Of a DNA stretch of 46,772 bases, positions 11,179 to 32,230 are shown piece by piece (the stretch's first letter is position 1; each line of letters starts with the position of its first letter). This DNA is from a virus. Location: positions 1 to 46,772 of the IMG/VR virus record IMGVR_UViG_3300044712_001577; one strand, given 5' to 3'. A program made the position numbers and the translations under genes. The notes below the pieces were generated by a model that saw nothing but the letters and a program-made list of their open reading frames with translations, had not been told where the DNA came from and did no database searches.

Positions 11179-14100
11179 TTAGTTAGACGCCAGCTGTGCC
11201 ATTCTTGTGCTGGCTGTGGCAGTAGTTTGCTGATTACGACTGATCGATTCCAACAATTCAATCATGCGCTGCTGTGATCCGCTGTCTTTCATGGCTATCA
11301 TAGCGTTGGTTAATTCACGCATCATTGATCCCATTTCGTTGCGCAACACTTGTACTTGGGCGTCTACTGCACGGTTAGATGATACAAGTTCATCTAAACT
11401 GGGCAAGCTCACAGGAACAGCACCGTTTTTCAGTGGTATCACTGCTTCTTTGCCGTGTAGCACAGCAGGGTAGCCAGTCATCGGTCCTGAGAACATGCCG
11501 CCATCTCTAGCTTTGGGGGCGTCTGACAGAGCAGTTAGCACCTCTTGCCGACTGATAGTTGCTTTGTTTGATCCAACACCTTGAGCAGCACTAACACCAC
11601 TGGACAATGGAAGTCCTGCCCATACCTGTGCAATGGCATCAGCAAATTGTTCCGCAGACATTTTTCCGCTTTGGAATTTTTGAAAGCCTTTTTCATTGAG
11701 CAATGCAATTGCCAATTTGTCCTGTGTACCCGGAGAAAATGTTTCGTTGGGAGTTACTACTCCCTGGTTTAGCAACCCTTGTAAAGTTTTTTGCACAATT
11801 TGGTATTTGCCAACTGCGGTACTTTCGTGCCCCTGTGCAATCATGTTGCGTTGGAAATCCAATACTTCACGGATGGTCATGCTGGTAAGCTCAGGATTTA
11901 CTTTGCCACCAACTAAAATATTGTAGTTGCCACCACTTTCAGCTTTACCAATAATATCTAGTATCCTAGTAGCAGAGGTTGTTGGGCGTTCTCCAGCAAG
12001 TGGCGTTTCTTGTCCAACACGAGCTCTTGCAGACATTTCTGCTGCACCAGCACGTTCTGCTTGTCTTCTTGCTTTGAATTCGGCTATACGTGCTGCTCTG
12101 GCTTCTGGACTTGCAGCACCTTTTTCTTCTGTTATTTTGACTCGTTTGGCTGTAGCTTCTTGCAGTGCAGCTTGTGCTGTTTTTGCGTCGATTGTAGTTG
12201 CTGCTGCTGCACCTGCGGCAGTGCCTGACTTAGTCGACGATGGTGCAGGAACAGCTGGTGCGCTCTTGCCTGCTGCTGAAGCTGTGCCTCCATCATACAC
12301 CGGTGTTCCTCCTGGGACCTGTGTTCCAATGATATCGCCAAATGTAGACACTGCATCAGCAAAAGTTTTTGATGCTGTTTCGTGTATCTCTGCTGCAATG
12401 TTGAACTGACTGATACCACGTTCCATGGTCATAGTAGCAGCTCTTTGCGCACGATTGGCGTCAATTAGATCTTTGGTGTTCTTATCAACTTTGATACGTT
12501 CATCTTTGACTGCTTCAACAAATTGAATAACAGCGTCTGGTCCTGTGAATCCGCGTGCTTCGGCAGCTTTTCTAAGTTGTGCCTGGCGAGCTTCGTCTTC
12601 TCGCAACGGCACAGATGCAATTTGAAATCCTTTGATGTCGCCAACTATTGCATTGATACTGGCCAACGAATCTGCTTGTGCTACAGCAGTTTTTACTGAT
12701 CGGTCGTAAACTTGTGCTACAGTTAAGTTTGTGTCTTCGATTAAACTAGTAAAACCTGTGCTGAGTTCTAGCTGAGTAGCTGCTTCTGTTGTCAGCGCAC
12801 CTCGACTTGCTCCTAGCTGCAATGCACCAACAAACGCTTCTTCGCCCAGCGTTTTACGATACATGCTTGCTACTTCTTGCACACGCTTCAGTCTGTTGAT
12901 TTCTGCAACGTTGCCTTCTTTCATGGCTTGTGTAAGAGCAGCACGGAATCTGGTTTCAGCCAACGCAGCTTCTCTGGCTTCTTGTTGATCTTTTCTAGTA
13001 GTGCCTGTGAGCTGTGCTGCAAGATCCAGTTCTCTGATGTAGTTGGCAGAGCTTTCAACTAACTTGTTGGTATTGTTGAGTTGCAATTGACCAGTTCGAG
13101 CCAGAATCGACATGTAGCTTAGAGTAACTTCACGTTGCTCCTGCATTGTGATGCCCATGTATTCAAGTTCTCGGCCAAACTGTCCTTTAGTTAAATCGCC
13201 GGCAACTTTTGTAAATGCTTTAGCACCAAGTTGCGAAGTTCCACCCATGATAGCCAAGTTGCGATTGTTTTCAACAATGAGTTTGTTGAACTGCTCAATC
13301 TCACTCATGGTCATACCCAGAGTCTGAACTGCGTCGATAATACCGTCTATACCGTTCTCTACTGCTATGCCGCCCCGACTGAGTTCATTGAAACTTTTGA
13401 GTTGTGCATCCAGTTGCTTGGCGGCCATTTCATTGACTTTGAGTGTTGCGCTGATTGCAGCAGTGCCCAATCCCAACAATGCAGCACCAGCTCGCATACC
13501 CCATTTTATTATGTTGGCCATTGGGCCAGCAGGCGTAAAGAAGGATGCAATGGTCAATATATTGCTTGCAAGACTGCCTAACTCCAACAACGGCTTGGCA
13601 AATTCAGAAACAGCTTTGGCTGAAAGTTCGGCACCTTGTTTGCCGTCTAGTAGACCTGTGGCAAACAACTTCAAAGACTGAGTTGCACCTTGGCCTGCTG
13701 CGCCAAGCACTCTTAGGCCAGTCTGGGCTGCTATTGAGTCGCCAGCTAGATCAAAGAATCTGGTTTTTAATAGTTCGGACGCGGACCCAGATGCAGCAAA
13801 GGCATCAAACATCACGGCGCTGCTGGCTTGAGCTTTGTTTAGATCTTCAGCTTGTCTACGAACGTTTTTAGACCTAGCTTCTGTTTCTGCTTTGGCTCGT
13901 TGCTGTGCTTGCTCACGTTCTTCTTTTATCAACTGTTCTTGTGATAGCTTGCTTTTGCGTATAGCTTCTTCACGAGCCTTGGCTTCTTCTTCCAGTTTGT
14001 CAATGGCAGCTTGACGTTCTTTTTCTTCTTCGTCAAGTTTTCCTGCTGTTTTCTCCACAGCTTTGGTAAACTTTTCGATGGCTTCTTGTTCAGTGACTCG

Positions 14101-14292
14101 ATTTTTCTTAGAGGTATCGAGCTTGACTGCCAGGGCGCCCAAGGCCACAACCACACGATCCACGCTGCGAACCATGCGTTCGGTGCCGTCCACTGCGTTC
14201 TTCGGAGACGTAGCCCCTGTGCCGCTGATGTTTTGCAGCACAGGAATCAACTGACGCATCTGTTCAACTAAGTCTCTTAATTCTTGATCCAT
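11179..14292 (-). CDS. Tail tape-measure-like protein with a C-terminal lytic (lysozyme-like) domain
   Basis: A 1037-residue protein. Residues 60-160 are a charged coiled coil. Residues ~195-290 carry several hydrophobic stretches (LASNILTIASFFTPAGPMAN; AALLGLGTAAISATL), typical of tape measures. The middle is helical. Residues ~776-915 form a domain resembling lambda-type lytic transglycosylase: IGKAESGG with candidate catalytic Glu785, then AVGKYQI, FSPGTQDKLAIALL and VWAGLP. A GG-F-x-GPM-x-GY...LHGKEAVIPL segment (~935-960) is typical of tape-measure C-termini. It probably sets tail length and locally cuts peptidoglycan during DNA entry. In T4 the tape measure gp29 lies elsewhere and lacks such a domain; here it sits directly upstream of gp20. 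Confidence 0.75.
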   Translation of the reverse strand: MDQELRDLVEQMRQLIPVLQNISGTGATSPKNAVDGTERMVRSVDRVVVALGALAVKLDTSKKNRVTEQEAIEKFTKAVEKTAGKLDEEEKERQAAIDKLEEEAKAREEAIRKSKLSQEQLIKEEREQAQQRAKAETEARSKNVRRQAEDLNKAQASSAVMFDAFAASGSASELLKTRFFDLAGDSIAAQTGLRVLGAAGQGATQSLKLFATGLLDGKQGAELSAKAVSEFAKPLLELGSLASNILTIASFFTPAGPMANIIKWGMRAGAALLGLGTAAISATLKVNEMAAKQLDAQLKSFNELSRGGIAVENGIDGIIDAVQTLGMTMSEIEQFNKLIVENNRNLAIMGGTSQLGAKAFTKVAGDLTKGQFGRELEYMGITMQEQREVTLSYMSILARTGQLQLNNTNKLVESSANYIRELDLAAQLTGTTRKDQQEAREAALAETRFRAALTQAMKEGNVAEINRLKRVQEVASMYRKTLGEEAFVGALQLGASRGALTTEAATQLELSTGFTSLIEDTNLTVAQVYDRSVKTAVAQADSLASINAIVGDIKGFQIASVPLREDEARQAQLRKAAEARGFTGPDAVIQFVEAVKDERIKVDKNTKDLIDANRAQRAATMTMERGISQFNIAAEIHETASKTFADAVSTFGDIIGTQVPGGTPVYDGGTASAAGKSAPAVPAPSSTKSGTAAGAAAATTIDAKTAQAALQEATAKRVKITEEKGAASPEARAARIAEFKARRQAERAGAAEMSARARVGQETPLAGERPTTSATRILDIIGKAESGGNYNILVGGKVNPELTSMTIREVLDFQRNMIAQGHESTAVGKYQIVQKTLQGLLNQGVVTPNETFSPGTQDKLAIALLNEKGFQKFQSGKMSAEQFADAIAQVWAGLPLSSGVSAAQGVGSNKATISRQEVLTALSDAPKARDGGMFSGPMTGYPAVLHGKEAVIPLKNGAVPVSLPSLDELVSSNRAVDAQVQVLRNEMGSMMRELTNAMIAMKDSGSQQRMIELLESISRNQQTTATASTRMAQLASN

Positions 14293-14342: not shown

Positions 14343-15179
14343 ATGAATTCTAATCCCCTAAGTCAATACTTTAGGCAACCCGCTATCTTTATTAGATTGC
14401 CCAGTCAGGGCGATTTTTATCCTCAAGGCACACTTGAGCACACTGTAAACGGTGAATACCCTGTGCTGCCCATGACCACTGCTGACGAAATTACCTATCG
14501 TACACCTGATGCACTGTTCAACGGACAAGCAGTGTGTTCGGTAATTGAAAGCTGTGTACCCAACATCAAAAATGCCTGGGCCGTACCCAGTGTGGACCTG
14601 GACACTATTTTGGTGGCCATTCGCATTGCTACTTACGGCAACGATCTTGATATCATGAGCACATGTCCTGCCTGTGAAACTGAAACTGAATATACCTTGG
14701 ATCTAACACAGGTACTTTCCAGTATTCAGGGCATTGACTACAGCAAGAGCTTGGTGTTAGGCGATTTGGAAATCTATTTCCAACCCATGAGCTACAAGCA
14801 AATGAACGATAATTCGCTGATTCAGTTCGAAGAACAACGTGCGTTACAGTCTTTGCAAAATGCCGAAGTTGACAGCGAGGCACAAACCAAACAACTGTCC
14901 GAAGTGCTGAGAAAGATCAACACAGTGACCACCCGAGCACTGGCTCAAAGCATTGCAGTGGTCAAGACACCCACAGCACAAGTCACCGATCCTAACCACA
15001 TCGGTGAATGGTTGCTAAACTGTGACCGCAACACTTTTGCTGCCATTAGAGACTTTATTATCGAGAGCAAGCAGCAAAGCGAACTCAAGCCAATGAAGAT
15101 CAAATGCACCAATTGCAATCACGGTTATGATCAACCATTTACACTGAACATGACTGATTTTTTCGCGGCCGCCTCCTGA
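14343..15179 (+). CDS. 26: Baseplate hub assembly protein, gp26/gp51 family (probable tail assembly chaperone)
   Basis: A 278-residue protein of the T4 baseplate gp26/gp51 family (Pfam T4_baseplate type). It begins NPLSQYFRQPAIFIRLPSQG and contains TPDALFNGQAVCSVIESCVPNIKNAW (residues 55-79). Two CxxC pairs, Cys108/Cys111 and Cys255/Cys258, can form a zinc-binding knuckle. No lytic or membrane features are present. The frame ends shortly after a T TTT TTC slippery heptamer (15158-15164). A -1 shift there continues directly into the next ORF and would give a product of about 350 residues. It opens the plus-strand block behind a perfect late promoter and is divergent from the tape-measure-like gene, as befits a tail chaperone. 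Confidence 0.85.
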   Translation: MNSNPLSQYFRQPAIFIRLPSQGDFYPQGTLEHTVNGEYPVLPMTTADEITYRTPDALFNGQAVCSVIESCVPNIKNAWAVPSVDLDTILVAIRIATYGNDLDIMSTCPACETETEYTLDLTQVLSSIQGIDYSKSLVLGDLEIYFQPMSYKQMNDNSLIQFEEQRALQSLQNAEVDSEAQTKQLSEVLRKINTVTTRALAQSIAVVKTPTAQVTDPNHIGEWLLNCDRNTFAAIRDFIIESKQQSELKPMKIKCTNCNHGYDQPFTLNMTDFFAAAS

Positions 15180-15231
15180 TTCAAGACAATGAGCAAGTGG
15201 TTGCGTCAATAGAGCGACTGGAGAAGGAGGC
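15158..15231 (+). promoter_or_regulatory. Candidate programmed -1 frameshift signal
   Basis: In the gp26 frame the codons are GAT TTT TTC, so T TTT TTC (15158-15164) fits the X XXY YYZ rule for -1 slippage. After a 6-nt spacer, GCCTCCT (15171-15177) can pair perfectly with AGGAGGC (15225-15231) to make a 7-bp stem. The -1 frame is open from the slip site through 15394 without a stop. The downstream ORF lacks an ATG start and a convincing ribosome site. Confidence 0.6.
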
Positions 15232-15394
15232 CAAGCAGATCAAAGACGAAATGTTTAGGGTTTGCTGGCACATGCGCGGTGGTATCACCATAGATCAAGC
15301 CATGCAACTGAGTTATCGCGACAGGGAAAGCATTGCTGAACTGATCAAGAGCAATCTAGAAACAACCAAAAAATCTGGACTTCCATATTTCTAA
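15197..15394 (+). CDS. Small hub/chaperone ORF, probably made as a -1 frameshift extension of gp26
   Basis: A 65-residue helical protein if started at GTG 15197 (VVASIERLEKEAKQIKDEMF, then MRGGITIDQAMQLSYRDRES and ETTKKSGLPYF). The RGG-I-x-(Y/I)-DQA-x(2)-LSYRDRE pattern resembles the C-terminal part of phage tail assembly chaperones, and homologues follow gp26 in T4-like marine phages. I see no AUG and no ribosome site at the expected distance, and the frame is open upstream to the slippery site. Its main product is therefore probably the gp26 fusion, adding 11 linker residues (RGRLLIQDNEQ) plus these 65. A free protein from GTG cannot be excluded. Its stop overlaps the next ATG by 1 nt. Confidence 0.7.
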   Translation: MVASIERLEKEAKQIKDEMFRVCWHMRGGITIDQAMQLSYRDRESIAELIKSNLETTKKSGLPYF

Positions 15395-15897: not shown

Positions 15898-16328
15898 GTT
15901 GGCAGTTTGGGCGCATTGATCTTGCCAAAACAACCTACAACAACGAGCTCGACTGGTGGTTGTTGGACCCTGTGCCTGTAGAACAAGTGCAGCGAGTGTA
16001 CAGAGATTATTGTGCTCACAAAAACTTTCAAAGTGTAATGCCCATGCTAGCTGGCAGACTCACTGCACCCAACACTGAAATCATTGGCTATCATGATCAG
16101 GGCCGTCTGGTAGCTTGGAGCATGTACAGGGTCTGGGACAACGAAAATGTGCTCAGTGATCATTTTGCCTGGGATTATCGCAATCCCCGGTTGAGACTGG
16201 GCATACGCAGTATTGAAAACGAGTGTGCGATCTACAGAGATCGCGGTTACCGCTGGATGTATTTTGAAGCGGTAGAGCCCTACATGTTAAGCTTGCAGGG
16301 TTTTGAAATTTTAGGAGCACTGAAGTAA
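15894..16328 (+). CDS. GNAT-like / arginyltransferase-like small protein
   Basis: A 144-residue protein. The second half (GRLVAWSMYRVWDNENVLSD, then FAWDYRNPRLRLGIRSIENE and GYRWMYFEAVEPYML) follows the pattern of N-acyltransferase-like folds: a beta strand carrying an Ala-Trp-Ser segment, a WDY-x-NP-x-L-x-LG turn and a final YMY/YFE strand. Phage homologues are usually called hypothetical. An acetyltransferase or aminoacyl-transferase fold is inferred, and no substrate can be proposed. It starts inside the last codons of the preceding gene and shares one base with the next start, so it is part of a tight operon. Confidence 0.5.
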   Translation: MSWQFGRIDLAKTTYNNELDWWLLDPVPVEQVQRVYRDYCAHKNFQSVMPMLAGRLTAPNTEIIGYHDQGRLVAWSMYRVWDNENVLSDHFAWDYRNPRLRLGIRSIENECAIYRDRGYRWMYFEAVEPYMLSLQGFEILGALK

Positions 16329-16660
16329 TGGATATCTACACAATTTGGGCCGACAAAGAAGGCGACATCTCTGACCTAGACTGGGTCAACAACATGAAGA
16401 AGTTTTTTGACCACTTGGTCAGCGAAGACCGAATGGTCAGCTATAGAATCACACGCTGCAAAATGGGCTTTAGATCTATCCCAGACATGCCGGAATGGAT
16501 GATACTGATGGAATTCCGCGACATGGGTCAAATGGATTCGGCATTTCGTCGTGTGGCACCACTCAAAGGCGAATTAGAAGACAAACACCGCAGCTTCAAT
16601 CAATTTGTGTCAGGCAACATTCAACACGCACTGTTTAGAGACTGGCCCGATCAACTATGA
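16328..16660 (+). CDS. DUF6614-like small protein
   Basis: A 110-residue protein matching the pattern of a small family found in bacteria and phages: an N-terminal IYTIWADKEG strand, then VSYRITRCKMGFRSIPDMPEW, then a strand and helix MEFRDMGQMDSAFRRVAP, ending FRDWPDQL. The fold is probably a dimeric alpha/beta (ferredoxin-like, ABM-type) barrel. No catalytic residues are obvious. It overlaps the next gene by 4 nt (ATGA at 16657). Its function is unknown. Confidence 0.6.
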   Translation: MDIYTIWADKEGDISDLDWVNNMKKFFDHLVSEDRMVSYRITRCKMGFRSIPDMPEWMILMEFRDMGQMDSAFRRVAPLKGELEDKHRSFNQFVSGNIQHALFRDWPDQL

Positions 16661-18154: not shown

Positions 18155-18583
18155 TTAAAGTTTGCCTATGATATGACTACCATGAACACGTACTTGAATG
18201 TGTCCGTTGTAGTAGTCTTTGCTTTCTAATACTCGTCGGGAAAATTGTTCTCTTGCTTCAATGTAACTGCATTCGGCTTTGCTTTTACAATAATATAGGA
18301 TTTCGCGTTGGAATTTGTCTGTGCCTAACTGTTCCACATCCTTGGTAAGCTCAGGACTTGACCCGTAATAGTCTCGCCAATCGCTGTCGACCTTAGTGCG
18401 GATTTTCTTTTTCTTTTTGCTGCCGTTTTTTAATTTGACTGTTTTTTGTGTAGTCTTAGAGAACTTTGCTAGTTTTTTGCCTATATACATGCGGCCGTTT
18501 GTGGTGTTTGTAATAAGATATACAAACCCCACACAATCTTCAGGTAGTTGATCTACCACTTGATTTTGAAACGTCCATGTCAT
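18155..18583 (-). CDS. SegE-like GIY-YIG family protein
   Basis: A 142-residue protein with the GIY-YIG core in variant form: GFVYLITNTTNGRMYIGKK (residues 19-37) supplies the VY-L and YIG strands. A KKKKKIRTKVDSDWRDYYGSS segment with basic DNA-binding character follows, then a helix ending with the expected Glu (SYIEAREQF). This matches the T4 SegE-like branch of freestanding endonucleases. In many T4-like phages such proteins are domesticated or of unproven activity. No C-terminal DNA-recognition domain is visible. No clear ribosome site precedes the ATG at 18583. It ends the gp55-gp47-gp46 run and borders the structured gap, a typical position for an endonuclease gene. Confidence 0.75.
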   Translation of the reverse strand: MTWTFQNQVVDQLPEDCVGFVYLITNTTNGRMYIGKKLAKFSKTTQKTVKLKNGSKKKKKIRTKVDSDWRDYYGSSPELTKDVEQLGTDKFQREILYYCKSKAECSYIEAREQFSRRVLESKDYYNGHIQVRVHGSHIIGKL

Positions 18584-18619: not shown

Positions 18620-20386
18620 TTATGCTATATCAATGTCTGTGTTGTAATTTGTAAATCCGTTTTCTTTGATCACTTTGAGTATGTTTTCTACTCGTCCAGC
18701 TAATTCGTCTTTGTGACTCACAAGCCAGATACTCTTATGACGTTCGCGGCTCATCTTCTTCAGCAAGCCCAAGCCGTTTTCCACACCTTGTGTGTCCAAA
18801 CCATTGTCCATGAGTTCATCGATGAACAACAAGTTTATGGGATGGTACAGGCTTTCCCACACATCGCGGAATGCCCAACTCATTGAGAGAATCAAACGTG
18901 TGCGTTCACCACGACTCAAGTTGTCGAAGTCTAGTTCACGACCTAGCTCTTCGATGCTGACACTGAGATCATTCTGGAATTTCACAGTGTGTGGCAATCC
19001 AATGCGATCCAAGTAGTGTGTGAGTCGCTGATTCAAGTAACTCAAGTTCTGGTCAATGATCTTCTTGCGCACAAATGAATCTTTGCTGGTCAACAGTTTG
19101 AGCAAGAAGTCTTGATGCTCTTGCACTCGAGTAAGTTCGTTCAGCGTGTCATAGGTCACTGTTTGCAATGCTTGTCCTTGCATGTCGGCAATTTGTTCGC
19201 CGTAAGGATCAACTTCGGCAAGGCGTGCAGCAAGGTCTTTGGCAAACCCATCCACGGTGTTTTTGTGATTCAGTGCTTGTTCAAGGCTGTCGTAAAACAC
19301 CACAGGTGCAGTGCCTAGCTCGCCTAGCTCGTCGAGTTCATTTTCGTATTCCACTAGCTCGTTGCGTTTTTCTTGCCATGTGGCGTTGATTTCTTCCAAT
19401 TCCTGAAGTTTGGCTAACTTGATAGTTTCGTGTTGGTTGTCGTGAATGTCTTGACCACATGCATGACAGCGATGCGAATTCAACATAGCAAGTTCTTGTT
19501 CTAGCTTGACACGGCTTTTTTCTAATTTACTAATCTCTGCAGACACCAGTCTGTGATTGCGAGTACAATCGTCTATGTTCTTTTTCAGGCGCTGATACGT
19601 ATCTAAATCTCTATGTGCTTGAACTTCGTGATCAATGTCGATGTGTTCAAGATCCCGAATGGCCTGTTCAAATGCTGCACAGTCTTCTTGTTGCTTTTTG
19701 AGCCACAACGTCTGACGCTTACGCAAGCTTTCAATCTGTTCTTCAATACGTTTGTTGGCTTCTTGTACAGCACGGATACGGAATTCTTCTTGGCTGATGG
19801 CATCTTTGGTTGACTTATTGAGTTCTTTGATGCGATCAGCACGTTCACTGAGTTGTGTGATACCCAACAACTGCTCAATGATAGTGCGTTGCTCATTGGC
19901 CTTCAAACTCAAAAACGGTTCAGTGTAAGTGTTCAGGGCCAAGATATGTTTGAACATATCATGGCTCATGCCTAAGATACGTTCGATGGCTTCCTGTGTT
20001 TCTCTGCTGTCACCTTGTGCTTCGTCTGTGGCCGCTTGTTCTTCATTGTTGACGTAAAACTTTAGCACATTGGGTTTACGCCCACGCTCAATCTTGTATT
20101 CTTTGCTACCTACAGTGAAATCCAAACTTACCAACATGTGTTTGGCATTGGTCTTGTTAACCAAATTGTCTTTGCGAATGTTGCTCAGTGCCTGGCCGTA
20201 CAGAGCATAGCTCAGTGCATTGATGATTGTGGTCTTGCCTGTGCCGTTACGACTACCGTCGCCGCCGAGATCCAAGTTTTCGCCCAGCACCAGGGTAAGG
20301 TCTCTGCGGTCAAAGTCAATGCCTTGCGTGGCATTGCCCACGCTCATAAAGTTACGAACAGTTAAAGTTTTAAAATGAATCAACAT
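18620..20386 (-). CDS. 46: Recombination endonuclease subunit gp46 (Rad50/SbcC-like)
   Basis: A 588-residue SMC-type ATPase. The Walker A lies in GSRNGTGKTT (to residue ~53) with the T4-type insertion after GEN. A long coiled coil (about 180-460) surrounds a zinc hook with Cys307-His-Ala-Cys310. The ABC signature NLSRGERTRL starts near 489, Walker B LLFIDE at 519-524, and the switch His is at 558 (WLVSHKDE). With gp47 it resects DNA ends for the recombination-dependent replication typical of T4. Its start overlaps the end of the preceding gene by 17 nt, so translation is probably coupled. All ATPase motifs are intact. Confidence 0.95.
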   Translation of the reverse strand: MLIHFKTLTVRNFMSVGNATQGIDFDRRDLTLVLGENLDLGGDGSRNGTGKTTIINALSYALYGQALSNIRKDNLVNKTNAKHMLVSLDFTVGSKEYKIERGRKPNVLKFYVNNEEQAATDEAQGDSRETQEAIERILGMSHDMFKHILALNTYTEPFLSLKANEQRTIIEQLLGITQLSERADRIKELNKSTKDAISQEEFRIRAVQEANKRIEEQIESLRKRQTLWLKKQQEDCAAFEQAIRDLEHIDIDHEVQAHRDLDTYQRLKKNIDDCTRNHRLVSAEISKLEKSRVKLEQELAMLNSHRCHACGQDIHDNQHETIKLAKLQELEEINATWQEKRNELVEYENELDELGELGTAPVVFYDSLEQALNHKNTVDGFAKDLAARLAEVDPYGEQIADMQGQALQTVTYDTLNELTRVQEHQDFLLKLLTSKDSFVRKKIIDQNLSYLNQRLTHYLDRIGLPHTVKFQNDLSVSIEELGRELDFDNLSRGERTRLILSMSWAFRDVWESLYHPINLLFIDELMDNGLDTQGVENGLGLLKKMSRERHKSIWLVSHKDELAGRVENILKVIKENGFTNYNTDIDIA

Positions 20387-21200
20387 TTACTCCATTGTCT
20401 TCCAACATTTTAACAATGTCGGTGGTATTTGTAAACCAGTTTGAATAGTCGTTGTGTGGCACCTCTATGTGGAACTCTAGATAGATAAAGTAATACAGCA
20501 CTGCCTGGGTCCACAAGTCTGTTATGTGAGTTAGATCGTGTGGTTGTTTGTTTTTTACTTTGGTGATAATTTTTTTTGATATTTCAACGGGAGAAATGTA
20601 AACATCGTTTGCATCGCGCCATTTTTCCCAAGTAGACTTAAAGTGGCCCATGTGTACAATCTGATCCAGTGCTTTGTATAACTGGCGATAATCACAGATC
20701 TGTTCTATGTTGATAGCGTATTCTCCCCAGGTATCGTCCTTCCACTGAAATCGAAATTTGTGATCCCTGAGATACAAAAAATATTTTTCGCGACGTGCCC
20801 AGTCGTCGTCGATGTCCCATGCATCAGTGGTTAACTCCCGGTCTATACTACTATTCATGGCTTTGTCAATTGCAGTTCTAGCAACAATAGGCCAAGAATA
20901 ATCTGTGTAGCAAATTTTAACAACTTCGGCTTGGGGCAACACCAATTTAAACTGCTTGCTTTCGTTGTCAATACCGTTATCGATTAACACCGAGTAGTTT
21001 TTTGATTGATCAAATTCGATTCCTCCGGGCCAGCATTCGTGTATATATTTTGGGGTAACCAGATCCAAAGAATGGCTGTTACCATTGGATGAAAACTCTA
21101 ATGCTCCCTTGGGACGAACAAAGTTATTCCCGTACAAAGTCAACACAGCGTTTACAAAATGTCCAAACCCGCCACTAGGGTACCAAACACAATAAATCAT
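20370..21200 (-). CDS. Unknown phage protein inserted between gp47 and gp46
   Basis: A 276-residue protein with an N-terminal CVWYPSGGFGHFVNAVLTLYG segment, then PKGALEFSSNGNSHSLDLVTPKY, and a C-terminal QAVLYYFIYLEFHIEVPHND then WFTNTTDIVKML segment. The pattern recurs in marine T4-like phages, but I know no function. The PSGGFGHFVN loop near the N-terminus could bind phosphate or a cofactor; a sulfotransferase-like fold is one guess. It overlaps gp47 by 4 nt (ATGA) and gp46 by 17 nt, so it is embedded in the nuclease operon and co-translated. Whether it takes part in recombination or is simply a passenger is unknown. Confidence 0.55.
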   Translation of the reverse strand: MIYCVWYPSGGFGHFVNAVLTLYGNNFVRPKGALEFSSNGNSHSLDLVTPKYIHECWPGGIEFDQSKNYSVLIDNGIDNESKQFKLVLPQAEVVKICYTDYSWPIVARTAIDKAMNSSIDRELTTDAWDIDDDWARREKYFLYLRDHKFRFQWKDDTWGEYAINIEQICDYRQLYKALDQIVHMGHFKSTWEKWRDANDVYISPVEISKKIITKVKNKQPHDLTHITDLWTQAVLYYFIYLEFHIEVPHNDYSNWFTNTTDIVKMLEDNGVNVDSF

Positions 21201-22213
21201 AGATTCTGATAGATCTTCAACAACAATTTGTTGTCGTAAAACTCTGATTCAATGTTTGTGAGCTGATCTACTACGATTTGGTCCACCGATTCAAATTTGA
21301 CTTCACCGGGGGCCATGTCTTCGTCCACGCCCGCGGTTTTGTTTGGGATAAGCGCCATCTCGCGTAGACCGTGCTGTTGAATAAACGTTTCTTTGATGAA
21401 GTTGGCTTCTTCGTACGAGATTTCGATATCGAGATTAACCCGAACGTGCATTTTGGGCTGAAGAAGAGTTTGAGCGTTGTCGATAAGGTTGGCAAGTCCG
21501 TAAACTCTGTAAGTAGGCTGGTCTGGCCAGGCATGATATACCGGATCTTTGCCCCACTCCAACACAGTGAGCCCACGTTCGTCGTCACCAGCGTCCGCAT
21601 AGTTGTGTGGGAACGCATTGCCAATGTAGGTGATATTCTTTTTAGTCTGGCGTTTGTGAAAGTGTCCTGTAAAAACATGACCAAACCCTGTAAGATCTTC
21701 ACGTTTGATTTCTCCATGATCTGGCATCTCCACCATTGCGTTCATTAGATACCCGGGAAGTTCAAAGTGTCCAAACAAGTAGTCGCCTGACATCTTGGTC
21801 AACCTCTTGTGATCATCGCCACAAAGCCAAGGAGCGATAGTGACACCACCACTACTAAACCAATCGTTGCAGATTTCCACATTGGGCAGGTGCTTGGCCC
21901 ATTCCACACTTTGAATATCGCGTTTGTCGCGATAGTACAAGTCGTGGTTGCCAGGAATAAAGTAAACCCGCTCAAAGTTGGCATTGAGATGCTCCAGCGC
22001 TCGTAGGCTGTAGTTCAGGGTAACAATGTTTAGGCTGGCACGGTTGTTGTGCCAATCACCTAGGAACAAGCAGGTTTCGCAGCCCTCTTCACGAGCCTTT
22101 TGGGTAGCCCACTGGACAAAAGCCAAACAGTCTTCGTTGTGAACTACACTGTTTGACTTGAGCCCAAAATGGATGTCAGTAAAGATTGCTGCTTTGCGAA
22201 ATAAGTTACTCAT
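21197..22213 (-). CDS. 47: Recombination endonuclease subunit gp47 (Mre11/SbcD-like)
   Basis: A 338-residue metallophosphoesterase. The metal-binding motifs appear in order: TDIHFG (Asp13, His15), GDWHNNR (Asp53, His55), GNHD (Asn89, His90, Asp91), FGHFE (near 148) and GHFHKRQ (His184, His186). This set is that of Mre11/SbcD nucleases, and gp47 of T4 is the phage form. It acts with gp46 in DNA end processing, recombination and host DNA breakdown. The C-terminal ~100 residues are the cap/partner-binding part. It starts 12 nt after the gp55 stop. Confidence 0.94.
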   Translation of the reverse strand: MSNLFRKAAIFTDIHFGLKSNSVVHNEDCLAFVQWATQKAREEGCETCLFLGDWHNNRASLNIVTLNYSLRALEHLNANFERVYFIPGNHDLYYRDKRDIQSVEWAKHLPNVEICNDWFSSGGVTIAPWLCGDDHKRLTKMSGDYLFGHFELPGYLMNAMVEMPDHGEIKREDLTGFGHVFTGHFHKRQTKKNITYIGNAFPHNYADAGDDERGLTVLEWGKDPVYHAWPDQPTYRVYGLANLIDNAQTLLQPKMHVRVNLDIEISYEEANFIKETFIQQHGLREMALIPNKTAGVDEDMAPGEVKFESVDQIVVDQLTNIESEFYDNKLLLKIYQNL

Positions 22214-23222: not shown

Positions 23223-25217
23223 ATGGGTTACGATGCAAAAAAGGCGGAAACGTTTAACAAACTGCGACAGGCTGGCGTTTCAGAAGATCAGGCACTAGCT
23301 CAGGCTGGTATCACTGACGCTGACATAGGCAATTACGCCCTGGGCAGCAACGGCCAAATGGGTGCGCTGAACATCGGCGGCGGCAAAGTTGCTGGGGTTG
23401 ATTATGAAAAGTTATCACCTGCTGAACTTCGTGAGCAAGCTCGTTTTGATCAAGGTCTCAAGTCAGTTGACTACGATGAAACCGCCAACGCACCGCCTAA
23501 GCCAACAACACCAATCAACTATACCACAACCAGCACAGAAACTGTAAGCGGTGGTGGATCTACTACTATTGTTGCAGGCCCTAGACAATCCAATGCAACC
23601 AGTCAAGCACTGGGCAGCGCCTATGATGCAAAAAATGCCGAGTACAATCAATTTGTCAAAGACAATCCCAGCGACTTTGCTAGACGCCGCCAAGGCCTTC
23701 CGCCCCTGACTCCCCAAGAGGCGCAGCAAAGACAAGCTCGCTTGGATCAGCTCAATCAAGAAAAAGAAACACTGAAGAATCGACAAATTGATGCTGAAAC
23801 ACCAGGCACACCCACAGTAGTTACTACACCCAACACAACCACAACCACGACCACAGTGACGTCGGGACGAGTGGCACCCAATGAACCGGTGAACATTCAA
23901 AACGATCCAGCAGTATTCAATCAGGCTGAACAACAACTTGATAATCAAACTCCTCAGGCAGCTACTGTAAACACAGTTAGCGCACCAACCGAAGTTGACA
24001 CAGGTGCAGACGCAGGTGAAATCACAGTGGCACAAGAACCGCCTACGTTTGAACCTCAAAGCATTGACCCCCAGGAAGATCCCTTTGAAGCCGAACGATT
24101 ACGTATAGAGCAAGAGTTTGACAATCCTGCTCCGGTGCTCACAGCTGAAGATGTACCGCCATTGGATCCTGAAGTACAGGCACAGATTGAACGTGAGCAA
24201 GAACAATTTCGTGCTGATTTTGCAGTGCAGTCAGCACAGGCCGATGCTGTTGATCTCGACAATGATCCAGCAGTAAGAGAATTTGCAGAGCAGTCGCGAC
24301 TGGAAGCAGAACAACGCTTTAACGAAATGTCTGATCCTGATGGGGCATACGAAGCAGAAACCAAAGCTAAACTAGCGGAATTACAAAAACAATCCACTAT
24401 ACAAGATCGCTTGGGTCAAAATGCCAAAGGCGACTGGCGTGTACGTTTGCGCATTGCACCTGAAGCCACATATCTATATCAGGACCCAAGTAACACGTTG
24501 CTGGCTCCACTCAAAGTCAGTGACGGTGTGGTATTCCCGTATACTCCTATCATCAATACCAACTATGCTGCCAAATATGATGCATATGATCTAACGCACT
24601 CTAACTATCGTGGATATTTCTATCGCGGTAGCCAGGTCAGCGACATCAATATTCAAGCTACATTTACAGCACAAGACACTCGAGAAGCTGAGTATGTGTT
24701 GGCAGTGATACACTTTTTTAGATCTGCTACCAAGATGTTCTATGGGCAGGACAGAGAGCGCGGCGCCCCGCCTCCACTGGTATACCTACGTGGTTATGGA
24801 GAATATCAATTCAATGACCACGCCTGTGTAATTTCTAACTTTCAGTACAACTTGCCCAATGATGTAGACTACATCTCTATAACCCCCAACAACATTGGAT
24901 TGAATATGAGCAACCGTCTTGCTCAAGTAGGTTCGTCGCCTACTAGCACACTAAGCTCTGCTGTGAATCGCTTGAAGAATTTGTACAATGCAGTATCTGG
25001 TCAACCTGGCGTACCGAGAGGTGCCAAACCCGGAGAGCGTGTAGAACTTGGCACAGTGTCTCAAACAGTTAACAAAACTGGTCAGTCTAGCTACGTGCCT
25101 ACCAAGATCGATCTCAGCATTACACTGTTGCCTGTGCAAACTCGCAGTCAAGTTAGCAAGCAGTTCAGTGTTAAAGAATTTAGCAATGGCAACTTATTGA
25201 AGAAAGGATTCTGGTAA
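23223..25217 (+). CDS. Large baseplate / tail-tube-associated structural protein
   Basis: A 664-residue protein. Residues 1-400 are Gln/Thr/Pro/Glu-rich and low in complexity, with a short N-terminal helical unit (KAETFNKLRQAGVSEDQALA) and a charged helix near 290-390. The conserved domain is C-terminal (about 412-664): GDWRVRLRIAP, GVVFPYTPII, YDLTHSNYRGYFYRGSQVSD, YVLAVIHFFRSATKMFYGQD, APPPLVYLRGYG, and a final VKEFSNGNLLKKGFW. This pattern recurs in structural proteins near gp53 in marine T4-like phages and may correspond to a baseplate tube-initiator (gp48/gp54) type fold, but I cannot prove that by eye. Its stop overlaps the gp53 ATG by 1 nt. Confidence 0.65.
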   Translation: MGYDAKKAETFNKLRQAGVSEDQALAQAGITDADIGNYALGSNGQMGALNIGGGKVAGVDYEKLSPAELREQARFDQGLKSVDYDETANAPPKPTTPINYTTTSTETVSGGGSTTIVAGPRQSNATSQALGSAYDAKNAEYNQFVKDNPSDFARRRQGLPPLTPQEAQQRQARLDQLNQEKETLKNRQIDAETPGTPTVVTTPNTTTTTTTVTSGRVAPNEPVNIQNDPAVFNQAEQQLDNQTPQAATVNTVSAPTEVDTGADAGEITVAQEPPTFEPQSIDPQEDPFEAERLRIEQEFDNPAPVLTAEDVPPLDPEVQAQIEREQEQFRADFAVQSAQADAVDLDNDPAVREFAEQSRLEAEQRFNEMSDPDGAYEAETKAKLAELQKQSTIQDRLGQNAKGDWRVRLRIAPEATYLYQDPSNTLLAPLKVSDGVVFPYTPIINTNYAAKYDAYDLTHSNYRGYFYRGSQVSDINIQATFTAQDTREAEYVLAVIHFFRSATKMFYGQDRERGAPPPLVYLRGYGEYQFNDHACVISNFQYNLPNDVDYISITPNNIGLNMSNRLAQVGSSPTSTLSSAVNRLKNLYNAVSGQPGVPRGAKPGERVELGTVSQTVNKTGQSSYVPTKIDLSITLLPVQTRSQVSKQFSVKEFSNGNLLKKGFW

Positions 25218-25516
25218 TGGCCAACTACGATTCTACCAGTCCCTATTACGCAACACCATACAGTCAGTTTTTTCTTGACGTCATGGTTGATCGTCCCATT
25301 CCCAAAGAAAGCGACGATTTGAAAACCATTATCAACTTGACCTATCAATATCGTCCAGACTTGTTGGCATTTGACTTGTACGGTACTCCTACCCTGTGGT
25401 GGGTGTTCTATCAACGAAACCCCAACACGCTGACCAAGCCACCGTTGGATTTCACAGTGGGCAAAGAAATTTACTTGCCCAAAGAATCAACACTGAAATC
25501 AGTGCTGGGGTACTAA
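25217..25516 (+). CDS. 53: Baseplate wedge protein gp53-like
   Basis: A 99-residue protein carrying the core of T4 gp53: TYQYRPDLLAFDLYGTPTLW (residues about 42-61), WVFYQRNPNTLTKPPLDFTV, then GKEIYLPK. The end forms a LysM-like fold that in T4 joins neighbouring wedges into the hexameric baseplate. T4 gp53 is 196 aa, so this is a minimal version. It is coupled to the upstream gene by a 1-nt overlap and is followed after 3 nt by the next ATG. The hydrophobic LWWVF segment is part of the domain core, not a membrane anchor. Confidence 0.85.
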   Translation: MANYDSTSPYYATPYSQFFLDVMVDRPIPKESDDLKTIINLTYQYRPDLLAFDLYGTPTLWWVFYQRNPNTLTKPPLDFTVGKEIYLPKESTLKSVLGY

Positions 25517-25519
25517 TCA

Positions 25520-28500
25520 ATGGCCAATCCAGCAGTAGAAATTGCCAACTTACAGCGTCGTCGTGAACAGTTGTTTGCCGAGCGCGACAGACTGGAAAGT
25601 GAAAGAGATGCATTAATCGCAAAAGCACGGATTCAATCGCAAGGCGGCGACAGAGAGGGTGCTACCACTCTGCGAGATCTTGCAGCTCGAATTGAAACAC
25701 AATTAAATGGCATTGAAGAACAGATTGGTAATCTATCTACTCAAATTGGCATATTAGAGCAACAACAAACACGTCAAGACAAAGAAGAGCAACCACAAAC
25801 CACTGTCAGCGGTCCCGCGCCGCCCACAGAAGATCCGACAACAAAACAAGTAGATGCTGCATCAAATGCTGCTGATGTCAACACCAACAGTGGTGACCCT
25901 GGCGATCCTGGACCTGCTGCTATTGCAAAAAAAGGCGACAACAGCGCTCAAGATGACAATCCTCAAACTGCTAACACGTCTGCGCTGGGTCAGCCTGTTG
26001 CTACCACTGCTGCAACTCCAGTAAATTCCCCAGCGTCCAAACCTATTGTTCCTCAGCCCAACATACTTGACCGTTTTGCTAGTTATACATATCAGGCCGC
26101 AGTTTATCTGTTGACACCCGAACAACTCAATGCGCTGCAAACTAGTCAAAAAAAATCAGTCAACGGATACAACTTGTTATTTCAAAGCGGCGGAGCCCCC
26201 AACAACATTGGCGGCCCACAGGCCGCGCCAACTTCTCAAACAAACACAAGTTCATCAGACGGAGTAGATGCAACTGCTGGTACACCAGTGGCATCAGGAC
26301 CCGACGCTGGCCGTAATCCTTTTTTCCCTAACGACTTTTACATCGACACAATTACCATTGAAAACGTACCGTTGGGCAAAGGTACTATGGCCGCGCACGG
26401 CTCTACACAATTGAAATTCACAGTAATTGAACCTGCAAATATCACCTTGCTGGATTGCATGTATCAGGCTGTGCAAAACTTGCAGCCAAAAAGTGGCGGG
26501 GGCAAAGGCCCTGTAAACTATGCAGCCGCTTGCTATCTCATGGTAATTCGTTTCTATGGATACGATGAACAGGGCAGATTACAAAAAGCTGGATTCCTTA
26601 CAGAAAATTCATCGTTGACTGATCCCAATGCAGCCATAGAAAAATACATTCCTTTTAGAATTAAAAATATCAACTGGGAAGTCAGCAACAGGTTGGTATC
26701 GTACGAATTTGATTGCCAACCCATTGGTCAAATTGTAGCTGGCGGAACTCGTCGAGGAACCATACCTGCTGATGTTGAAATCAGTGGACAGACTGTGGGC
26801 GAACTTCTAGTTGGCAGTGTGCCTGCCAACAATGCCAGCGCCACAGCCCAAACTGGATTGCGAGCAGATGAAAATCAAACTCAGGCCGAAACAAATCGTC
26901 TGGCTGGCCAGGCATCGGCACCACCCAAAGCCGCTGCTGCCCAACAAAAATCAGCTCTGCGTACCGGAATAATTGGTGCAATGAATGCTCAACAACAAAA
27001 GTTGTTGAAAATGAACGAAGTTGAAATTGCCGACGAGTACGAAATAGTATTTGCTACAGGTGCAGAAAAAATCAGAGACGCCACTGTGACCAAGCCGGGG
27101 TCCACAGTAAACAAAGGTGCCACTGACATGGGCCCTGCACCTCAACAGAATCCCAGTGGGCTCAGTCCAGACAAAGGCGCTGTAAAACAAAACAGCAGAA
27201 ATCAAGGCATCACTGCTGGTATGCAATTGTTGCAAGTGATTGATTTGGCCATTAGAAATTCAAACTATATCACTGACCAAGCAACCACTGTGATCACCGA
27301 AGGCAGCGATGGCAAATCAGAAGCCAATGGCACTGCCAACTCCACTTCATTTTTGTGGTATCACATTGCCATGAGTGTGCAGCAACTGGGCTACGACTTC
27401 AAACGCCGTGACTTTGCATACCGTGTGAGATACACTATTCTCCCCTACGCACCACAGGATTTTCAAAGTCAGTATTTCCCTCAGCCCAAATTCCGTGGAG
27501 TGGTCAAAAGCTATCCATACTGGTTTACAGGACAGAACACAGCAGTGTTGGACTACAGAGCCAGCTTCAACAAGATGTATCATTTAACAGTGTCTGGAAG
27601 TTCAGCCGAAACGTCACTGTTGGCAAAAAGCAGACAAGATTATGTGACCAGCATGAGAGATCTGCCATTTGTACAGTATCAGGCCCGCAGTACTGAATCG
27701 TCGATGGGTGCAGCAGGTCGTGCCAACGAACTAGCAGCCAATGCTGCTGAATATCTGTACAATCCAGCAGACAACGGCCAGGCCGAAATGACCATAATAG
27801 GCGATCCGGCTTGGATACAACAAGGTTCTTCCATTGGCCAACTTGATCCCAAAAATATCAATTATGATCCGTTCAATCCCGACGGCACTATCAATTTTGA
27901 CACCAATGATGTGTTGTTTGAAATAGTGTGGCAACGACCTGAAGATTATGATCTAGGCACTGGCCTGGCAGATCCTTACGCTAGAACTCAAGCTACATTC
28001 GGCGATAGACAACCACGGCAAAGTGTGATTTACCGAGCAATCAATGTAGTCAGCGAGTTCCGACAAGGTAGATTCCAACAAAAACTCAAAGGCGTTCTGT
28101 ATAGATATCCAGTGCCGGGCAAAAAGTCAGACGCTGATACCACTGCATCAAAAGCAACCGGTGGCAGCGAAACTGGTTTAGACGCAAGTGGTCGCCAAAC
28201 CAGCGCCAGCGACACTCGTGTGCAGGGTCGCAGTAATCAAAGTTTGGCTGTGCAATTGAGAACTGGTGTCAACTTAAACAGCACAGCAGGTGCTGGCCGC
28301 GGCATTGTTGCTGGGCCCACAGCTGAAGAACTTGCTGCTTACTCGGATGCAAAATCTGCACAGACTGCGGCTGCAAGATTATCATCGTCGGCCACGCCCA
28401 GTGCTAGACCTGCCCCAACACCAAACGTCACAGCAACACCTGTCAGTAGCGGAGAGTTTTCTGCTCCTACGGCCGAATCTGGTGCAGTTTCTCCACTGCC

Positions 28501-28666
28501 TCCTGCTCAACCGGTAACTAGTAATGGTGCAACAGTGACTCGACCAGCAACTAATAGTACCGCAACAGCAAATCAATCTGGTGCAGATACAGCAAGGCTG
28601 AGACGAGCAGGACAAGCAACAGCTGGTGCTCTTAACTTGCCCCAACAAGGCGCTAGAGATTATTAA
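25520..28666 (+). CDS. Giant baseplate structural protein, function not assigned
   Basis: A 1048-residue protein. Residues 1-85 are a strong coiled coil (NLQRRREQLFAERDRLESER), followed by a disordered Gln/Thr/Pro/Ala stretch. Two or more beta domains follow: one from ~270 (FPNDFYIDTITIENVPLGKG; LKFTVIEPANITLLDCMYQA; YLMVIRFYGYDEQG) and a later one around 570-800 (FLWYHIAMSVQQLGYDFKRR; VRYTILPYAP; FRQGRFQQKLKGVLYRYPVP). The C-terminal ~170 residues are Ala/Ser/Thr-rich. The EP-x(2)-ITLLDC and RF-x-GYDE signatures are familiar from structural proteins beside gp5 and gp53 in marine T4-like phages; a hub or wedge role is likely but not demonstrated. AAGGA follows its stop for the next gene. Confidence 0.6.
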   Translation: MANPAVEIANLQRRREQLFAERDRLESERDALIAKARIQSQGGDREGATTLRDLAARIETQLNGIEEQIGNLSTQIGILEQQQTRQDKEEQPQTTVSGPAPPTEDPTTKQVDAASNAADVNTNSGDPGDPGPAAIAKKGDNSAQDDNPQTANTSALGQPVATTAATPVNSPASKPIVPQPNILDRFASYTYQAAVYLLTPEQLNALQTSQKKSVNGYNLLFQSGGAPNNIGGPQAAPTSQTNTSSSDGVDATAGTPVASGPDAGRNPFFPNDFYIDTITIENVPLGKGTMAAHGSTQLKFTVIEPANITLLDCMYQAVQNLQPKSGGGKGPVNYAAACYLMVIRFYGYDEQGRLQKAGFLTENSSLTDPNAAIEKYIPFRIKNINWEVSNRLVSYEFDCQPIGQIVAGGTRRGTIPADVEISGQTVGELLVGSVPANNASATAQTGLRADENQTQAETNRLAGQASAPPKAAAAQQKSALRTGIIGAMNAQQQKLLKMNEVEIADEYEIVFATGAEKIRDATVTKPGSTVNKGATDMGPAPQQNPSGLSPDKGAVKQNSRNQGITAGMQLLQVIDLAIRNSNYITDQATTVITEGSDGKSEANGTANSTSFLWYHIAMSVQQLGYDFKRRDFAYRVRYTILPYAPQDFQSQYFPQPKFRGVVKSYPYWFTGQNTAVLDYRASFNKMYHLTVSGSSAETSLLAKSRQDYVTSMRDLPFVQYQARSTESSMGAAGRANELAANAAEYLYNPADNGQAEMTIIGDPAWIQQGSSIGQLDPKNINYDPFNPDGTINFDTNDVLFEIVWQRPEDYDLGTGLADPYARTQATFGDRQPRQSVIYRAINVVSEFRQGRFQQKLKGVLYRYPVPGKKSDADTTASKATGGSETGLDASGRQTSASDTRVQGRSNQSLAVQLRTGVNLNSTAGAGRGIVAGPTAEELAAYSDAKSAQTAAARLSSSATPSARPAPTPNVTATPVSSGEFSAPTAESGAVSPLPPAQPVTSNGATVTRPATNSTATANQSGADTARLRRAGQATAGALNLPQQGARDY

Positions 28667-28675
28667 GGACAAACA

Positions 28676-30181
28676 ATGGCACAAGAAACGGAACGCAGTA
28701 GAGGTCGGCCGCAGAATTACAAGTTAGATCGCGGCGGAGTACCTGCGGAACCAGGTCCATTTATTGGTATAGTAATGAACAACGTAGACCCTGCCCGATC
28801 TGGCAGACTACAAGTGTACATCGAAGCGTTCGGTACCGGGGATATCAACGATTCTAGCAAATGGGTACGTGTAAGATACTTGCCGCCATTTTACGGTGCT
28901 ACACCTGCTGGCAAGACACCCGGCACAGGGCCCGGAACATATCCAGGTAATCAAAACAGTTATGGCATGTGGTTTACTCCGCCAGACATTGGTGTCAAAG
29001 TACTGTGCTTCTTTGTCAACGGTGACAGAAGCGAAGGTGGATACTATGTTGGTGTAGTACCCGAAAATGGTGTAAGTCACATGGTTCCTGCCATTGGTGC
29101 AGAAGCCAACTACATTGTAGGCAACAAAAACCAAGAAAGTTATTTTGCTGATAGCCCGTTGTTGCCTGTGACAGAAATCAATACCAACAACAAACAGCTA
29201 GACAACGCTGGCAGATTTTACGATCAAGCCAAACCAGTTCACGGTGTTGTAGCGTCAGCAATGTTCCAGCAAGGACTAAACAACGACGTTGAACGTGGAC
29301 CTGTGCGCAGTAGCAGTCAGCGCGAATCTCCGTCTGCGGTATTTGGAATCAGCACACCGGGTGTGGCAGTTTATCAAGGCGGCTTGACTCCACAAGATAT
29401 ACGAGAAAAACTCAACGCAGGTGAAGTAAAGCCTTCTGATGTGGGTGTAATTGGACGCATGGGCGGTCATACCTTGGTCATGGACGACGGCGACATAGAC
29501 GGCAACAATCAAATGTTGCGTTTGCGCACAGCCAAAGGTCATCAAATCACCATGAATGACACAGGTAACTTCTTGTACATCATTCATGCCAACGGGCAAA
29601 CTTGGATTGAACTAGGGGTAGAAGGCACAGTTGATGTGTTCAGCACTAACTCTGTGAACATACGTACACAGGGAGATATCAACTTGCATGCCGACCGTGA
29701 CATCAACATGTACGCTGGTAGAGATTTCAAAGTCAAAGCCAATGCCAACATCACCATGGAAGCAGTGGTCAACACCACAATTACGGCACAAGCAGATTTG
29801 AAACTGTACAGCAAAGCCACCATTGGAGTCAAAGCCGATGGATCATTGGCATTGAACAGCGAAGGCGGCTCATGGGCCGCTGGCGGCAGTTTGATCGTGA
29901 GTGCAGGTGGAATTGACCTCAATGGTCCTGCTGCTCCTGCTGTGGAAGCGCCGCGCCCATTGCAAAAAACCAAGTTAGATGATACTGCATTTGATAACCT
30001 CAAAGGCTGGCAAGTTGAAAAAGAAATGCTAGAAAGCATTGTGGGACGAGCACCCACACACGAACCATACCCATATCACAACAAAGGTGTGGACGTTGAA
30101 GTTGCGTTTGAAGAAGGAACACCAAGTCCGCCGCCAGGCGCACCGCCTGTTCCTGCTGGTGTAGAGATTGTGAGGGTATAA
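28676..30181 (+). CDS. 5: Baseplate hub spike protein, gp5/VgrG-like, without lysozyme domain
   Basis: A 501-residue spike. Residues ~27-110 form an OB-fold region (GPFIGIVMNNVDPARSGRLQ, then VRVRYLPPF and a GMWFTPPDIGVKVLCFF strand), as in gp5/VgrG. The middle has GRMGGHTLVMDDGD and LRTAKGHQITMNDTGN, the typical approach to the needle. Residues ~315-415 are a short-period beta-helix (DINLHADRDINMYAGRDFKV). T4 gp5 carries a lysozyme between OB fold and needle; no such domain or catalytic Glu motif is seen here. The C-terminal ~85 residues are extended and Pro-rich. It has AAGGA 7 nt before the ATG. Role: central membrane-piercing spike of the contractile tail. Confidence 0.85.
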   Translation: MAQETERSRGRPQNYKLDRGGVPAEPGPFIGIVMNNVDPARSGRLQVYIEAFGTGDINDSSKWVRVRYLPPFYGATPAGKTPGTGPGTYPGNQNSYGMWFTPPDIGVKVLCFFVNGDRSEGGYYVGVVPENGVSHMVPAIGAEANYIVGNKNQESYFADSPLLPVTEINTNNKQLDNAGRFYDQAKPVHGVVASAMFQQGLNNDVERGPVRSSSQRESPSAVFGISTPGVAVYQGGLTPQDIREKLNAGEVKPSDVGVIGRMGGHTLVMDDGDIDGNNQMLRLRTAKGHQITMNDTGNFLYIIHANGQTWIELGVEGTVDVFSTNSVNIRTQGDINLHADRDINMYAGRDFKVKANANITMEAVVNTTITAQADLKLYSKATIGVKADGSLALNSEGGSWAAGGSLIVSAGGIDLNGPAAPAVEAPRPLQKTKLDDTAFDNLKGWQVEKEMLESIVGRAPTHEPYPYHNKGVDVEVAFEEGTPSPPPGAPPVPAGVEIVRV

Positions 30182-30182
30182 A

Positions 30183-31799: not shown

Positions 31800-31805
31800 T
31801 AAATA
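31798..31805 (+). promoter_or_regulatory. Late promoter AATAAATA, 5 nt before the gp25 start
   Basis: AATAAATA-TTGCT-ATG. The element overlaps the stop codon of the upstream gene. With T4-type spacing, transcription would start at the gp25 ATG (31811), giving a leaderless mRNA; no ribosome site is visible. Confidence 0.55.
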
Positions 31806-31810
31806 TTGCT

Positions 31811-32185
31811 ATGACTACATTTATCGGCTTCAACACTATCAATCAATTCAAAAAGTTTACACTCACAGACTTTGCATTGATTCAGCGCGACCTGTTGAAT
31901 GCCTTTAACATACGTCAAGGCGAACTTCCAGGCCGTCCTGCATATGGCACTGTGATGTGGGACTTCTTGTTTGAAAATCAAATTGAAGAATTAGCCAACA
32001 ACATTCGCGCCGAAGTAGAGCGTGTGGTATCTGGCGATCCTAGAATTGTGGTATCAGACATTCAAATATTTCCGCAGCAAAACGGCATTTTGCTACAGAT
32101 ACAAGTCACAGTGGTGCCCACAGCCAACGCTGAAATACTCAGTATCTTTTTTGACCTACAACAACGTTCCGCTTCCTACGTATAA
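31811..32185 (+). CDS. 25: Baseplate wedge protein gp25
   Basis: A 124-residue gp25-family protein (GPW/gp25 fold). Characteristic segments are DFALIQRDLLNAFNIRQGEL, GRPAYGTVMWDFLFENQ (residues 42-58), and the closing strands VVSDIQIFPQQNGILLQIQV. This is the sheath-initiator wedge component that contacts the first sheath ring. It is close to T4 gp25 in length (132 aa). It directly precedes gp6, as its complex partner, and is read in the same direction. Confidence 0.9.
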   Translation: MTTFIGFNTINQFKKFTLTDFALIQRDLLNAFNIRQGELPGRPAYGTVMWDFLFENQIEELANNIRAEVERVVSGDPRIVVSDIQIFPQQNGILLQIQVTVVPTANAEILSIFFDLQQRSASYV

Positions 32186-32188
32186 CTA

Positions 32189-32205
32189 CGCCGTTTTTTA
32201 CGGCG
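32189..32205 (+). other. Hairpin in the gp25-gp6 gap touching the late promoter
   Basis: CGCCGT (32189-32194) pairs perfectly with ACGGCG (32200-32205) across five T. The last base of the stem is the first base of GATAAATA. No T-run follows, so it is more likely a 3'-end protecting or processing structure for the gp25 message than a terminator. Confidence 0.5.
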
Positions 32206-32212
32206 ATAAATA
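32205..32212 (+). promoter_or_regulatory. Late promoter GATAAATA upstream of gp6
   Basis: GATAAATA ends 18 nt before the gp6 ATG (32231), the same spacing as the GGTAAATA at 23197. The 18-nt leader includes an AGAGG ribosome-site-like stretch. Confidence 0.7.
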
Positions 32213-32230
32213 ATACAGAGGTTCTACGGA

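Follow-up and report, generated by a model that had tools for sequence, protein, structure and literature searches.

The DNA analysed here, a stretch of 46,772 nucleotides from a large T4-related phage (IMG/VR record IMGVR_UViG_3300044712_001577; hereafter the window), carries a gp26-type gene that runs up to a small open reading frame. The locus raises the question of whether the two are read separately or whether some ribosomes pass from the first into the second. Judging from sequence comparison, we consider a ribosomal -1 frameshift at the end of gp26, giving a short and a long product, to be very probable. That the pair acts as a tail assembly chaperone is likely by analogy with known systems, and the best reading makes the gp26 protein the TAC-N and the 350-aa frameshift product the TAC-NC of such a chaperone.

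Reading frames and slip site in the window

The gp26-type gene (14343..15179, + strand) starts at the ATG at 14343 and stops at the TGA at 15177-15179, giving a zero-frame product of 278 aa. The heptamer T TTT TTC (15158-15164, + strand) lies in the X_XXY_YYZ register of this frame, with T at 15158 followed by the codons TTT (15159-15161) and TTC (15162-15164), 12 nt upstream of the TGA, just as the preliminary description had claimed. It differs from the heptamer of lambda gpG/gpGT. That description also had the -1 frame continue across the gp26 stop into the next open reading frame, which is correct, the frame being open from 15158, immediately after a TGA at 15155-15157, to the TAA at 15392-15394. 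Read from the slip point, the -1 extension (15164..15394, + strand; the candidate TAC-C) has 76 codons plus a stop, so that the fusion product would measure 274 + 76 = 350 aa. The small open reading frame as listed has 65 aa and begins with GTG at 15197; the first in-frame ATG is extension codon 30, as read in a locus with an identical protein (L001).

The window contains 14 copies of TTTTTTC against 12.9 expected from shuffles, and the heptamer alone therefore means little. Within the window sequence it is weak evidence; it is the relatives that lift the site above chance.

Conservation of the site and the extension

Relatives were collected from IMG/VR by a gp26 protein search whose peptide patterns leave out the slip region, and the best 80 of 185 were kept. 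An in-register slip site is present in all 80 of these contigs (best 80 of 185), as TTTTTTC in 79 and as TTTTTCC in one. This sole TTTTTCC (L016, 3807-3813) is either a sequencing error or a weakened site. Across the same 80 loci (best 80 of 185) the distance from the heptamer to the gp26 stop is 3 or 12 nt. Four of the 80 loci are cut by contig ends (L004, L035, L062 and L073) and were excluded from the length, selection and folding counts; the 76 complete loci were merged into 64 distinct loci, or 58 distinct regions, from which 39 lineages of less than 80% identity were kept. Of the 39 lineages, 38 share the same bases at the synonymous positions of the heptamer, while Phe elsewhere in the same genes is encoded by TTT 294 times and by TTC 135 times. 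With the amino acids taken as given, the heptamers of the 39 lineages would have a log10 probability of -37 if the lineages were independent, a figure that shared ancestry weakens.

A heptamer no commoner than chance in the window could be an inactive coincidence, or the arrangement could be an error of contig assembly. Against this, the gp26 protein is 100% identical in a 251,693-base record (L001), possibly from the same sample as the window, and 79 further contigs (among the best 80 of 185 relatives) keep both site and frame at identities down to 38%. Coincidence and assembly error are contradicted by this comparison of homologues, and we give them a negligible probability.

The same arrangement is found in cultured jumbo phages. 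Among GenBank phage records 64 matched and 60 were listed, from which 16 were fetched, picked to span different genera. The matches also include Escherichia phage Sharanji, whose record gives K-12 MG1655 as host. All 16 of these cultured jumbo records contain the slip site and a -1 extension, with TTTTTTC in 14 and TTTTTTT in two (RAS14 and XacN1). In none of the 16 does the annotation join gp26 to the extension, which is given as a separate hypothetical gene, as part of one, or is absent from the annotation (RaK2 and PA5oct). Wider T4 relatives were also compared. S-PM2 and KVP40 have TTTTTTC before the gp26 stop and a -1 extension, as does HTVC008M with TTTTTTT, and 80 of 80 S-PM2-like (cyanophage-like) contigs, the best 80 of 276 relatives, contain TTTTTTC and a complete extension. 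T4 differs from the window in that its gp26 has no heptamer and no -1 extension at its end, gene 25 coming next. Its gp51, encoded separately, is a paralogue and second member of PF12322 (177.9 bits), the family to which both T4 genes and the gp26 of the window belong. It has a C-terminal segment resembling the S-PM2 extension, and its alignment with the S-PM2 fusion spans the junction (E 2e-4), as would be expected if TAC-N and TAC-NC were encoded separately in T4.

In 75 of the 76 complete loci the extension is 76 codons long, and in the remaining one (L067) it has 75. Its first residue, Arg, and its fifth, Leu, are invariant in the 39 lineages; conservation thus starts at the slip point. 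Over 526 pairs, the -1 frame gave a pS of 0.64 and a pN of 0.27 (mean pN/pS 0.41), whereas the zero frame gave 0.34 and 0.35, and the +1 frame 0.24 and 0.37. This comparison indicates that the extension is coding in the -1 frame and under purifying selection.

Several records (Phosso, 121Q, BF, XbC2 and Kaldavass) annotate the small frame as a separate gene, whose translation would begin at a start codon of its own or follow from reinitiation at the stop of gp26. An ATG is present somewhere in extension codons 1-30 in 51 of the 64 distinct complete loci. However, its position is not constant (often codon 15 or 19), 13 of the 64 lack one in these codons, and in the window itself the first does not come until codon 30. 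Only two of the 64 loci (L040 and L072) have an ATG at codon 2, where it overlaps the gp26 stop. The earlier view that the small frame lacks a start of its own holds up on the homologues, in that no start codon is conserved. Moreover, conservation of both sequence and length begins at the slip site, upstream of the candidate starts, and a separate gene would not explain why the heptamer is fixed or why structure follows it. Having weighed this alternative, we judge it very unlikely.

The AlphaFold2 model of the extension (pLDDT 88.1, pTM 0.62) consists of a long helix, a turn and more helices. A profile of the window-clade extensions matched those of cultured jumbo phages at 99.6%. Against the cyanophage TAC-C the match was weak and not significant (hhalign, 1.2%), and the cultured jumbo profile matched the cyanophage extension profile at 25.8%. 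These profile matches suggest that the TAC-C domains of the window clade, the cultured jumbo phages and the cyanophages may all be of common descent. The extension could not be convincingly assigned to a family in Pfam, PHROGs or NCBIfam, searches of solved structures by sequence gave no convincing relative (best E 0.18), and a fold search of BFVD gave no match at E 0.001. The frameshift reading provides peptides for testing, LLIQDNEQVVASIER within the extension and a predicted junction peptide ending in MTDFFR.

RNA structure after the slip site

A 7-bp stem had been described 6 nt after the heptamer, and it is present in the window as stated. The proposed 5' arm GCCTCCT (15171..15177, + strand) follows a spacer of 6 nt (15165..15170, + strand), and the proposed 3' arm AGGAGGC lies at 15225..15231 (+ strand). 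The window stem by itself gave z -1.59, with 15 of 200 shuffles folding equally well.

Folding energies were compared with those of synonymous shuffles, which preserve the encoded protein. Of the 58 distinct regions, 55 fold better than the shuffle average (mean z -2.59); z is below -1.5 in 42 of 58 and above 0 in three. For a 90-nt stretch in the 39 lineages, mean z was -2.60 starting at +6, -1.88 at +7, and -2.10 when starting at -10, with most of the stem region still inside. Away from the site in these lineages, mean z was no lower than -0.66 (up to +0.01) for starts between -400 and -40, and -0.63 or weaker from +20. Comparison with shuffles thus places an excess of structure directly after the site. 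In 23 cyanophage-like lineages mean z was -1.96 at +6, yet it was also low at -40 (-1.67) and at +60 (-1.21), so the structure signal there is less sharply placed. The 16 cultured jumbo records gave weaker structure and no clear peak (mean z -1.19 at +6, -1.45 at +40).

The register of the stem is more variable than its presence. A survey of anchored stems found the window register to be the best one in 25 of 64 distinct complete loci. The remaining loci have the same 5' arm with a 3' arm at other distances, or a weak stem, and the anchored stem has fewer than seven pairs in four of 39 lineages. The survey was built to accept only 5' arms beginning at +5 to +9 and lacks shuffled controls, and the folding-energy scan over start offsets is the less biased guide to stem position. 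The conservation across homologues that had been looked for was found for the heptamer, in 79 of 80 contigs (best 80 of 185), and in part for the window stem: a stem is supported among relatives, but the register described for the window is one of several.

Covariation was examined in a subgroup of nine sequences, picked because the anchored-stem survey placed their stems at +5..+19/+62..+76; L067, whose best stem is one column off, was kept. In this subgroup 91.1% of cells pair, against 60.7% at most when the arms are slid. Changes on both sides occur in 4 of 15 stem pairs, which 5 of 500 shuffles reach, and the covariation score was reached by none of 500. The folding comparison and this covariation both support a 3' stem a few nucleotides past the heptamer, less strongly so in the cultured jumbo records.

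One possible though doubtful account is that the stimulator is conserved with its 5' arm about 6 nt past the heptamer, that its 3' arm shifts between lineages (about +26-55, +57-76, +82-90, perhaps +109-119) within constrained coding sequence, and that the 3' arm may also cause ribosomes to pause. The arms read CCTCCT and AGGAGG in one subgroup; once the stem opens, the AGGAGG arm could pause ribosomes by binding the anti-Shine-Dalgarno sequence at the end of 16S rRNA. The proposed stem, like the junction peptides above, lends itself to testing.

The placement of this structure also bears on the possibility that RNA polymerase, slipping on the run of T, changes the frame and the ribosome does not. 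The run has six T here, seven in RAS14 and XacN1 and eight in HTVC008M. Polymerase slippage usually requires longer runs, however, and 79 of 80 loci (best 80 of 185) have just six T and then C, even though a longer run would still encode Phe. Excess structure directly past the run is what suits a ribosomal stimulator. We weighed transcriptional slippage and judged it highly improbable.

Candidate roles of the two products and neighbouring genes

The gp26 protein of the window is a member of PF12322 (T4_baseplate; E 9.6e-17, 61.8 bits against a curated cut-off of 24.5) and matches phrog_150 (E 1.4e-17). Its AlphaFold2 model, made from an alignment of 32 of the 39 lineages, has a pLDDT of 86.7, and the best Foldseek match in BFVD was a predicted T4-like baseplate hub assembly protein (E 6.3e-25). 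Among solved structures the best match by sequence was unconvincing (E 0.27) and there was none by fold at E 0.001, while a DNA-level search of phage records gave no match.

Among the closest known systems are the tail assembly chaperones of T4-like phages. Vladimirov, Gautam and Davidson reportedly described in 2022, for several T4-like groups, gp26-family TAC-N proteins with a -1 frameshift into a short C-terminal domain, T4 genes 26 and 51 reportedly being separate genes. The preliminary description had known of no such case for gp26-type genes. That part did not hold, the mechanism being known in kind: a passage of one paper treats -1 signals in the TAC-N genes of T4-like phages as known, citing Vladimirov et al. 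2022 (PMC12846349), and an excerpt of another refers, with the same citation, to T4-like phages that have a short gene plus a fusion gene instead (PMC10885494). The same passages of PMC12846349 describe a TAC locus in Pakpunavirus/Vandenendeviridae which, like the window, has a -1 frameshift predicted from conservation at a polyT signal (GTTTTT) and a downstream open reading frame mostly annotated as hypothetical; unlike the window, it belongs to another phage family, has another motif and has its tape measure gene downstream. No report of a frameshift in the present jumbo clade was found among the titles and abstract openings listed. The present analysis adds the clade, the count of its breadth and the stem.

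A real frameshift might also yield a part of the baseplate hub and an extended variant, both residing in the virion, and such an outcome is compatible with the frameshift half of the best explanation. Databases name the family baseplate hub, and the record of phage CBB lists the gp26 homologue as structural, a label at odds with a pure chaperone. The PA5oct record, on the other hand, has an ESI-MS/MS note on the portal and on the divergent neighbour and none on the gp26 homologue. Chaperone or cofactor roles have been proposed for T4 gp26 and gp51 (PMC9024508), and a TAC assignment in T4-like phages is published (Vladimirov, Gautam and Davidson 2022, Virology 566:9-15). We regard virion residence of the products as unlikely, and our results favour a tail assembly chaperone over a baseplate hub part as the reading of gp26.

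On the chaperone reading, a single gp26 start would give two proteins. Most ribosomes would terminate at the TGA at 15177, producing the 278-aa short form (TAC-N). A minority would slip back by one base on T TTT TTC, aided by the mRNA stem 6 nt on, and translate 76 extra codons into a 350-aa TAC-NC with a helical TAC-C domain at its end; the comparison shows the site, the frame, selection on the extension and the excess structure, and from there we infer the slip, its efficiency and the chaperone action. Lambda gpG/gpGT is a further close known system, described in a passage of PMC5009743 citing Xu, Hendrix and Duda 2004. By analogy with it, many short forms may coat the tape measure protein, a few long forms may connect that protein to the tail tube subunits, and neither form would be retained in the virion. 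The likeness to gpG/gpGT is one of analogy. In lambda the tape measure gene lies downstream, whereas in the window the tape-measure-like gene is divergent, a point against the chaperone reading. The earlier comparison with tail assembly chaperones is upheld by the homologues in heptamer, frame, spacer, stem and absence of a conserved start codon. The T4-like chaperone frameshift would thereby also take in jumbo phages, both an uncultured clade and cultured ones, and the small genes downstream of gp26 in such jumbo records should be merged with gp26.

The divergent neighbour (11179..14292, - strand), of 1037 aa, is probably the tape measure protein, as its composition and matches suggest. It is helix-rich in composition, as is the gp46-like gene at 18620-20386, and has a lysozyme/muramidase-like segment at about residues 758-924. 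Its C-terminal segment presumably resembles tape measure C-termini, by a motif that we take to be typical of them. Among the 25 of 110 records listed there were lysozyme or phage muramidase-like matches up to E 3e-14 and one record named tape measure; the match to lambda-type lysozyme was weak (E 0.013). A profile search with the neighbour gave no tape-measure family match of its own. In RaK2, 121Q and GAP32 the corresponding protein matches a virion structural protein PHROG; that of GAP32 also matches a tape measure PHROG weakly (E 0.028), and the RaK2 record notes its counterpart as similar to a tape measure.

Other genes were noted in the window. A gene pair on the minus strand (18620-22213) has AAA_23/SMC_N and Metallophos domains and is gp46/gp47-like; between the two lies a 276-aa gene without a Pfam match. 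The 142-aa protein at 18155-18583 (- strand) matches a PHROG named NAD synthetase, a doubtful label, as well as several homing endonuclease families. Three genes downstream of the frameshift pair is a DUF6614 protein (16328-16660, + strand; E 5.3e-21). The region 25217-35962 (+ strand) forms a baseplate module with wedge and hub/lysozyme-like proteins, in which a 1243-aa protein matches a wedge subunit family (1.5e-279).
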